Shown here in pieces: positions 59,972-60,318 of a stretch of 64,000 nucleotides of DNA. A program made the translations under genes and the position numbers. The DNA lies in NCBI RefSeq assembly GCF_019355555.1, contig NZ_CP072141.1, forward strand, positions 3,466,001 to 3,530,000, given 5' to 3'. The DNA is from Rhizobium sp. L51/94. GTDB lineage: Bacteria > Pseudomonadota > Alphaproteobacteria > Rhizobiales > Rhizobiaceae. Positions within the stretch are counted from its first letter, which is position 1; every line of letters starts with the position of its first letter. The notes under the pieces are model-generated. The model did no database searches, was not told the origin of the DNA, and worked only from the letters and a program-made list of their open reading frames with translations.

Positions 59972-60030
59972 TCTTCCACCAAATACAATCTTAAGGCGAT
60001 TTTTCTATCTTACTCATCCACTTCGACTAT

Positions 60031-60142
60031 GACTGATAGAGTCGGTAGCGAAAGCAGCAGGCACCGTGGCCAGCGGTGCATCGAGGAAGACGGGCCTCCT
60101 CGACCCAGGCGAGGGCCTCGTTACTGAAAACGGAGGTGATCT
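60031..60142 (+). ncRNA. Predicted structured leader RNA (four-way junction) before a small reading frame
   Basis: Found by hand-folding. A hairpin GACT-GATAG-AGTC (60031-60043) is followed by a closing helix GGTAGCG/CGTTACT (60044-60050 with 60119-60125, two wobble pairs). Three inner hairpins follow: GCACCG/CGGTGC (60061-60079), TCGAGGA/TCCTCGA (60081-60103) and AGGC/GCCT (60107-60118). The third stacks directly on the closing helix. The Shine-Dalgarno that follows (60132-60136, GGAGG) can instead pair with CCTCC at 60095-60099, which would break the second hairpin. That mutually exclusive pairing is riboswitch-like. I could not assign it to a known class. Confidence 0.45.
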
Positions 60143-60232
60143 ATGTGGTACATACCGCTTAGTTTCACGTTTGTGGTAAGAAAAACCCGCACAGGCTGGT
60201 CAATGACCGTGCGGGTTAACTTTTTATCATAA
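60143..60232 (+). CDS. 29-residue small protein or leader peptide
   Basis: The frame ATG TGG TAC ... TAA encodes 29 residues beginning MWYIPLSFTFVVRKTR. An alternating hydrophobic pattern suggests two beta strands. The ribosome site GGAGGTGATC is a ten-base perfect complement of the 16S rRNA 3' end, with ideal spacing, stronger than any other in the window. The last third of the frame is inside a rho-independent terminator, so translation and termination would compete. I do not recognise the protein. Confidence 0.45.
   Translation: MWYIPLSFTFVVRKTRTGWSMTVRVNFLS
60184..60225 (+). terminator. Rho-independent terminator inside the small frame
   Basis: Stem AACCCGCAC/GTGCGGGTT (9 bp), with inner GGTCA/TGACC pairing, followed on the plus strand by TTTTT at 60221-60225. 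It fits the end of the RNA that begins near 60030, or read-through from the DMT gene. Confidence 0.8.
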
Positions 60233-60266
60233 AAAAATGGTGGGTGGAGTTAGCGCTCCATCCACC
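60231..60266 (-). terminator. Rho-independent terminator for a reverse-strand transcript
   Basis: Stem GGTGGGTGGAG/CTCCATCCACC (10 of 11 pairs) with a 6-base loop. On the reverse strand seven T residues follow at once (60231-60237). No annotated gene on the reverse strand ends here, so a short unannotated transcript is implied. Confidence 0.75.
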
Positions 60267-60318
60267 GCTCCAAGATATGTCGAACCAACCAATTTTGCAA
60301 GTACAGTATCAAGCTCAC
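60250..60318 (-). CDS. Possible 22-residue hydrophobic peptide before the reverse-strand terminator
   Basis: From a GTG at 60318 the reverse strand encodes MSLILYLQNWLVRHILERWMER, stopping inside the terminator stem. The same frame is open up to 60444. GGGATCGG upstream is a poor ribosome site. A short amphipathic or membrane-active peptide is possible, but the coding evidence is thin; it is listed because a terminator with no other gene needs an explanation. Confidence 0.2.
   Translation of the reverse strand: MSLILYLQNWLVRHILERWMER

Follow-up and report, generated by a model that had tools for sequence, protein, structure and literature searches.

A compact module recurrent in Hyphomicrobiales combines a structured leader RNA, a short peptide frame and a predicted antisense RNA gene

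The window analysed here, a stretch of 64,000 nucleotides from Rhizobium sp. L51/94, carries one copy of a compact module, about 270 bp long, which is found repeatedly among Hyphomicrobiales. Its plus strand has the following order: a four-way-junction leader is followed by a hairpin that sequesters the Shine-Dalgarno (SD) sequence and the AUG, and then by the conserved frame of a 28-29 aa peptide; on the minus strand there is a predicted antisense RNA gene, with promoter, stem-loops and terminator, which overlaps the 3' half of the ORF. Lone chromosomal copies of the module adjoin unrelated genes, and the copy in the window lies between the gene of an EamA transporter and an aminotransferase-V gene.

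The leader (60044-60125, plus strand) consists of four helices, namely P1 (60044-60050/60119-60125), P2 (60061-60066/60074-60079), P3 (60082-60086/60098-60102) and P4 (60108-60110/60115-60117), with coordinates carried over from alignment A1, and it rests on the fold of the window, on covariation and on the comparison of G-U with A-C cells. An earlier reading of the sequence alone, called below the sequence-only reading, had drawn this junction by hand, and it is in fact present in the sequence and identical to the minimum free energy fold. The stability of the window's leader taken alone is unremarkable (z -0.97, 29 of 200 shuffles being equally good); the stretch 60020-60232 as a whole has an exceptionally stable fold (z -4.24). 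A lack of covariation, which had been named as speaking against the proposal, did not arise, for the leader covaries strongly among relatives: over 59 distinct sequences, standard pairs fill 91.7% of the pair cells and two-sided changes are seen in 18 of the 21 pairs, and the covariation score is 0.525, whereas shuffles average 0.196, none of 500 being as high, and slid structures give at most 0.096. The pair counts come from an alignment fitted to the hand-drawn P1-P4 structure, which was also used in the covariance model, and they lean towards this structure, so that the slid controls and the two-sided changes serve as the safeguard. Moreover, wobble cells in the leader are G-U in 92 cases versus A-C in 30, which points to the plus strand as the RNA. 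When RNAalifold was run on the leader, it favoured a pairing of the 3' strand of P1 with the SD, which may represent a closed state of the leader, and a conditional refolding is possible. As a side observation, the P2 loop (60067-60074) carries CCAGC, the complement of a GCTGG that lies in the hairpin loop within the ORF (60195-60200); both motifs are nearly invariant in the alignments, and a long-range contact between the two loops is possible.

The distribution of the module was followed with R1, a covariance model of the leader, and by DNA search, the latter giving matches, some of them short, in 13 of 61 genomes. R1 matched 30 of 148 genomes of the genus and 16 of 297 sampled from the order, and among 289 genomes sampled from the class it matched the window's own genome alone; these large scans used stricter filters, under which weak matches are lost. 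Genomes in the order sample have up to six matches each, for example one with a tandem array of three copies at 381 bp spacing and another with two copies 328 bp apart, and the window's genome has three copies of the module. A genome of the same species matches the region of the window copy without any difference over 2401 bp, and the congener G169 matches it at 95% identity. A pattern scan of genome contigs, made with a wrong spacing, gave 15 stretches, of which three (L096, L100 and L105) have a strong R1 match and one (L106, 22.4 bits) a weak one. From the R1 matches and L018 a set of copies was assembled by hand and deduplicated from 99 to 98; it excludes repeat views of one copy, L061:2487 (18.8 bits), L138:3033 (E 0.034), L106, a partial match in L081 and those rows of the genus scan for which no locus was fetched. 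The copies are related, and counts over this set overstate independence. In a tree of 96 copies, which leaves aside the weak copies L045 and L046 of the set, the 31 copies of gene transfer agents (GTAs) and six chromosomal copies form one supported branch (96/93), and the window copy groups with the copy of a congener, with an extra copy of G169 and with a Pararhizobium plasmid copy (95/92). Some related copies have a locus in common, such as L004 and L010 with a GntR/FCD neighbour.

Downstream of the leader, the SD GGAGGTGATC (60132-60141, plus strand) matches the complement of the anti-SD exactly over 10 nt, just as had been remarked before, and the ORF begins with ATG at 60143 and runs over 60143-60232 on the same strand, encoding the 29 aa MWYIPLSFTFVVRKTRTGWSMTVRVNFLS. 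This 29-codon frame, likewise marked in the sequence-only reading, is conserved among relatives, where the ORF has 26-30 codons in 85 of the 98 copies and exactly 29 in 61. A hairpin at 60130-60174 (plus strand), seen in the fold of the window copy and in 71 SD regions, pairs the SD and the start codon with codons 3-12. For these 71 regions, which are those with GGAG out of 74 distinct ones, the SD/AUG region has 13.9 nt paired with codons 3-12 versus 10.2 when the downstream codons are shuffled (mean z -1.94); the consensus fold given by RNAalifold for the region is weak. A regulated small-protein gene, one of the two suggestions made from the sequence at first, agrees well with the frame, the SD/AUG hairpin and the structured leader, all of which are conserved. 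As for the peptide itself, the alignment holds 82 distinct proteins with the majority pattern MW..P..ITL..RKTRT.W..TVRV.F, and one group instead resembles MSRRRWKLEVSLTKNAERWVITLRITF. Over 895 related and non-independent pairs dN/dS is 0.57, a moderate value because the codons carry RNA structure too. The 30-aa peptide of a relative is modelled as a beta-hairpin with strands at 5-14 and 19-27 (mean pLDDT 79.5, pTM 0.32). No match was found in Pfam and NCBIfam for five peptides or in PHROGs for three. On the plus strand, a loose promoter motif fits 49 of the 98 copies.

The other suggestion, that a riboswitch or stress-sensing leader controls translation here, now seems highly improbable. It is true that a multi-branch leader with conserved loops stands immediately 5' of a strong SD. 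However, the downstream gene is not conserved: the module stands alone, and the scan of 20 neighbouring proteins gave no related downstream gene set, since the neighbours vary by lineage, which argues that the leader is not that of a metabolic gene. The switch that had been proposed, an alternative pairing of the SD with CCTCC at 60095-60099, is not conserved either, as CCTCC is found there in 7 of the 98 leaders, and in its place the SD/AUG region pairs with codons 3-12. That no known riboswitch class would fit had been anticipated, and indeed no Rfam family reaches its gathering score anywhere in the window; under permissive settings five matches turn up below threshold, and four of these are minus-strand matches within 60174-60302. 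The presence of an antisense gene also speaks against such a leader, and a riboswitch was rejected in view of the context, the non-conserved switch helix and the absence of an Rfam match. Hence the junction, the SD and the frame of the sequence-only reading stand, its CCTCC switch falls, and its terminator, as described below, passes to the other strand.

On the minus strand, a putative sigma70-type promoter lies at 60272-60300, with TTGCAA (60300-60295) and TATCTT (60277-60272) separated by 17 nt. The pattern TTGnnn-N16/17-TAnnnT occurs 3' of the ORF on the minus strand in 82 of the 98 copies, on the plus strand in 0 of 98 and in 3.2% of shuffles. The predicted antisense RNA of about 89 nt (60178-60266, minus strand), its ends placed by the promoter and the terminator, would fold from 60266 to 60178 into three stems, one at its 5' end, a small one and a GC-rich one belonging to the terminator, with z -5.57 and 0 of 200 shuffles equally stable. 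Its 5' stem is the hairpin 3' of the ORF (60239-60266), which is also part of the sense 3' region and whose wobble cells are strand-ambiguous (G-U on plus 101, on minus 65). The terminator (60178-60217, minus strand) is a hairpin within the ORF, with a stem at 60217-60184 and a T-rich tail, and its strand is indicated by tails and wobble cells. Among the 94 of 98 copies whose ORF stem lies above the score cut, 36 have at least 6 T in the 9 nt after the stem on the minus side, and none has them on the plus side; another scan, asking for at least 5 T in 8, gave 59 of 98 on the minus side and 3 of 98 on the plus side; and the wobble cells of the stem are G-U in 34 cases if the minus strand is the RNA and in 3 if the plus strand is. 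This bias assigns the embedded terminator to the predicted antisense gene. The hairpin that the sequence-only reading had found in the frame is real, then, and it is explained by a predicted minus-strand gene which that reading missed; the assignment to the sense strand is what gives way, and a sense-strand terminator in the ORF as a general feature was rejected on the same bias. Two observations on the window copy itself count against the minus-strand assignment. The tails on the two sides of the stem, TTTCTTACC and AACTTTTTA, have 5 T in 9 each, and the hairpin here may thus act bidirectionally; and a generic promoter and terminator scan, with loops of 3-8 allowed, listed neither the antisense promoter, which fell below threshold, nor the ORF-stem terminator of this copy.

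With a minus-strand promoter and fold as strong as these, one may ask whether the module acts chiefly through its minus-strand RNA, as an sRNA working in trans, with the plus-strand RNA as sponge or antisense decoy and the peptide in a secondary role. In its hairpin-plus-terminator layout the minus strand weakly resembles the rhizobial sRNA RcsR1 (RF02552), but it scores 19.4 bits, where membership would take a gathering score of 60, and so it is not a member. We think such a role of the minus-strand RNA improbable, as the ORF, the SD and the SD/AUG hairpin are conserved across diverged families and the leader covaries beyond the antisense region.

The ORF and the antisense gene tend to be lost together. 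The antisense promoter motif is absent from 7 of the 13 copies whose ORF is outside 26-30 codons versus 9 of the 85 with an intact ORF (Fisher p 0.0008), and eight of these nine have a near-miss promoter in the usual position, L056 being the one without. For example, the third copy of the window's genome (G000:C1:1305691-1305802, L069/L083) retains the leader and the flanks, and when it is compared with the intact G169 copy, the ORF and the antisense gene, promoter included, are missing as one gap of about 170 bp; plasmid pMl1 of S. medicae has an ORF shortened to 11 codons and has lost the antisense promoter. Such linked loss is what one would see with a toxin whose retention depends on its antitoxin; the general decay of a dead locus would look alike.

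The GTA clusters are one site of the module. A pattern scan of viral contigs gave 27 stretches, of which 26 have an R1 match and 25 are GTA clusters; no R1 match was found in the stretch L117. In all, gp14 (NlpC/P60) and gp15 (GTA_TIM) flank 31 of the 98 copies, and all 31 are opposite to the operon. In the genus, gp15 is found in 36 of 148 genomes, in some as weak fragments, and 30 loci were read. The module is present in nine of them, where 294-381 bp separate gp14 from gp15, and three of the nine are from the window's species and G169; twenty are without it, with nineteen gaps of -2 to 58 bp and one of -148; and one locus (L179:3360-3427) has a gap of 679 bp with a partial leader match of 24 bits, perhaps a decayed copy. 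In the order, gp15 is found in 139 of 199 genomes, and among 30 loci read the module is in the gap solely in the window's genome, 28 gaps being of -9 to 67 bp and one holding an unrelated insert of 329 bp. Since the gaps are mostly empty in both genus and order, the module is an insertion in the GTA and not a standard GTA part. The unrelated insert, of about 329 bp and with repeats like TTCGCCGGAATGACGG, lies between gp14 and gp15 in a different family (L164:1180-1520), so that this junction accepts other inserts too. Moreover, the terminator tails are weaker in GTA copies, at least 6 T being found in 5 of 31 versus 31 of 63 elsewhere among these related copies, as if read-through into gp15 were kept. 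In a separate observation, gp15 has one or two in-frame TAG codons in many of the genus loci (L182, L185-L192, L198, L199, L201 and L205), which suggests GTA decay in part of the genus, or another cause.

That the module is multi-copy and dispersed, and that some 300-380 bp fill GTA junctions which are empty in congeners, could bring to mind a small non-autonomous transposable repeat. We give this hardly any credence, because copies within one genome are diverged, no target duplication is evident at the GTA junctions inspected, and the peptide frame and RNA structures are maintained. The extra copy of G169 was compared with G000 and G110, and with 431 bp versus 32 bp it is not a clean insertion; the case was set aside.

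Outside the chromosome, the module is carried by Rhizobium phages with genomes of 115-122 kb, for which there are 10 records with one phage entered twice, and by four plasmids of 115-119 kb including pLM21S1. Five of these 14 records were searched whole and have one copy each, and in the five the copy occupies a stretch without annotated gene amid short genes. The phages matched include B1VFA and V1VFA-S, which have been described as possible phage-plasmids with parA, parB and repC (PMC12509600). Three diverged queries against plasmid records of Sinorhizobium and others gave 21, 19 and 21 records, of which 14, 15 and 15 are typed as conjugative; the matches of the first query cover at most 28% of it. 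Five plasmid records fetched from these matches stand outside the 98-copy set. Four of the five are typed MOBP/MPF_T and one, from Roseibium, non-mobilizable; in four of the five the 29-aa ORF is intact and the antisense promoter is present, and the fifth has neither.

Putting these signatures together, we lean towards the reading that the module is a new RNA-controlled, type I toxin-antitoxin-like family with a putative toxin, and it may be an addiction unit whose silencing RNA gene lies on the opposite strand. According to such a scheme, the minus-strand promoter would yield an abundant and constitutive antisense RNA of about 89 nt, which, by pairing with the peptide mRNA over its 3' half, would cause RNase III cleavage or a block of translation, and the SD/AUG hairpin would keep the mRNA closed and its translation low. 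The mRNA would become open to ribosomes once the leader refolds or is processed, or once the antisense RNA is lost, and the peptide, once made, would harm the cell and thereby penalise the loss of the replicon or locus. Several lines of evidence count for this toxin-antitoxin reading: the covariation and strand bias of the leader; the ORF, conserved in length and pattern in 85 of the 98 copies, together with the SD/AUG hairpin; the minus-strand promoter, terminator tails, strand bias of the ORF stem and antisense fold; the linked loss of ORF and antisense gene; and the carriage on phages, plasmids and conjugative plasmids and the tandem copies, which resemble known type I loci. As expected of a type I system, the ORF is shorter than about 60 aa, namely 26-30 aa in 85 of the 98 copies, and has an SD of its own, and an overlapping antisense RNA gene is found at the level of sequence signatures, that is promoter, terminator, strand bias and fold. 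Against it count a peptide modelled as a beta-hairpin and not as the usual hydrophobic helix, the copy L056 with its intact ORF and no antisense promoter at the usual place along with the eight near-miss copies, a dN/dS that is just moderately low, a plus-strand promoter for which a loose motif fits no more than 49 of the 98 copies, and the generic scan without this copy's antisense promoter and ORF-stem terminator.

Among the closest known systems are the type I pairs txpA/RatA, bsrG/SR4 and fst/RNAII, in which the antisense RNA lies over the 3' part of the toxin gene, and such systems are carried on mobile elements, as is the module. In yonT/SR6, according to PMC5848175, the antisense RNA SR6 of 100 nt overlaps the 3' end of the toxin gene, and the module resembles it in a very short ORF and in a predicted cis-encoded overlapping antisense RNA of similar size. 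Folding of the toxin mRNA is described as a control in type I systems in PMC6733600. Unlike these systems, the module has a covarying four-way junction as leader and an antisense terminator encoded within the codons of the toxin. Type I toxins are usually small and hydrophobic, as stated in PMC6563280, whereas the peptide of the module is modelled as a beta-hairpin and its toxicity is putative. With neither a hydrophobic helical form nor a sequence match to a known type I toxin family, the peptide is left outside these families, and this keeps in play the main rival of the toxin-antitoxin reading.

This rival takes the module as a moron-type accessory gene with a non-toxin early or entry function (e.g. 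anti-defence or superinfection control), which would be silenced by the antisense RNA after establishment and made on entry into a cell without that RNA. Phage morons are autonomous units between structural genes. The module is likewise an autonomous unit in phage gaps and on conjugative plasmids, and within the GTA operons it sits between gp14 and gp15 on the opposite strand in 31 of 31 cases, its transcriptional independence there being deduced from sequence; the predicted non-hydrophobic beta-hairpin of the peptide would also suit such a function. Unlike morons, however, the module is kept on plasmids and as lone chromosomal copies as well, with an antisense RNA gene of its own; for the lone copies and the tandem arrays an entry function is harder to see, and the joint loss of the ORF and the antisense gene is what a toxin would be expected to show. 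The presence in GTAs, phages and plasmids fits either account. On the whole we consider a moron-type gene unlikely, and continue with the toxin-antitoxin reading.

If that reading is true, the module represents an undescribed antisense-paired peptide family of Hyphomicrobiales that is unusual in two respects: the leader of the toxin is a covarying four-way junction, and the terminator of the antitoxin is encoded within the toxin codons. Among the matches listed, no description of the module was found in the open-access literature on type I toxin-antitoxin systems in Sinorhizobium, Rhizobium, Alphaproteobacteria, Rhizobiales and Agrobacterium, or in that on GTAs with toxin-antitoxin or small RNA, and the accessible parts of PMC5082802 and PMC5521070 hold no description of it. 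More speculatively, the module could represent a novel toxin-antitoxin class that is under RNA control and has a beta-hairpin as its toxin, with a GTA-embedded antisense copy that addicts cells to their own GTA, a selfish account of GTA maintenance, and with sister copies that stabilise rhizobial phage-plasmids and conjugative plasmids; this we hold to be doubtful. On the toxin-antitoxin reading, the location between gp14 and gp15 would make the question why cells keep GTAs directly testable in the lineages concerned, namely by asking whether the GTA locus is addictive, and on the plasmids and phage-plasmids of symbiotic bacteria the module is a candidate stability determinant to be sought.

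A minor observation concerns the surroundings of two of the mobile copies. In phage B1VFA (L108:1679-4170) as well as in plasmid pLM21S1 (L109:1156-3640), a pair of genes annotated as NadM/Nudix-type and as nicotinamide/nicotinate phosphoribosyltransferase lies a few kb upstream of the module.
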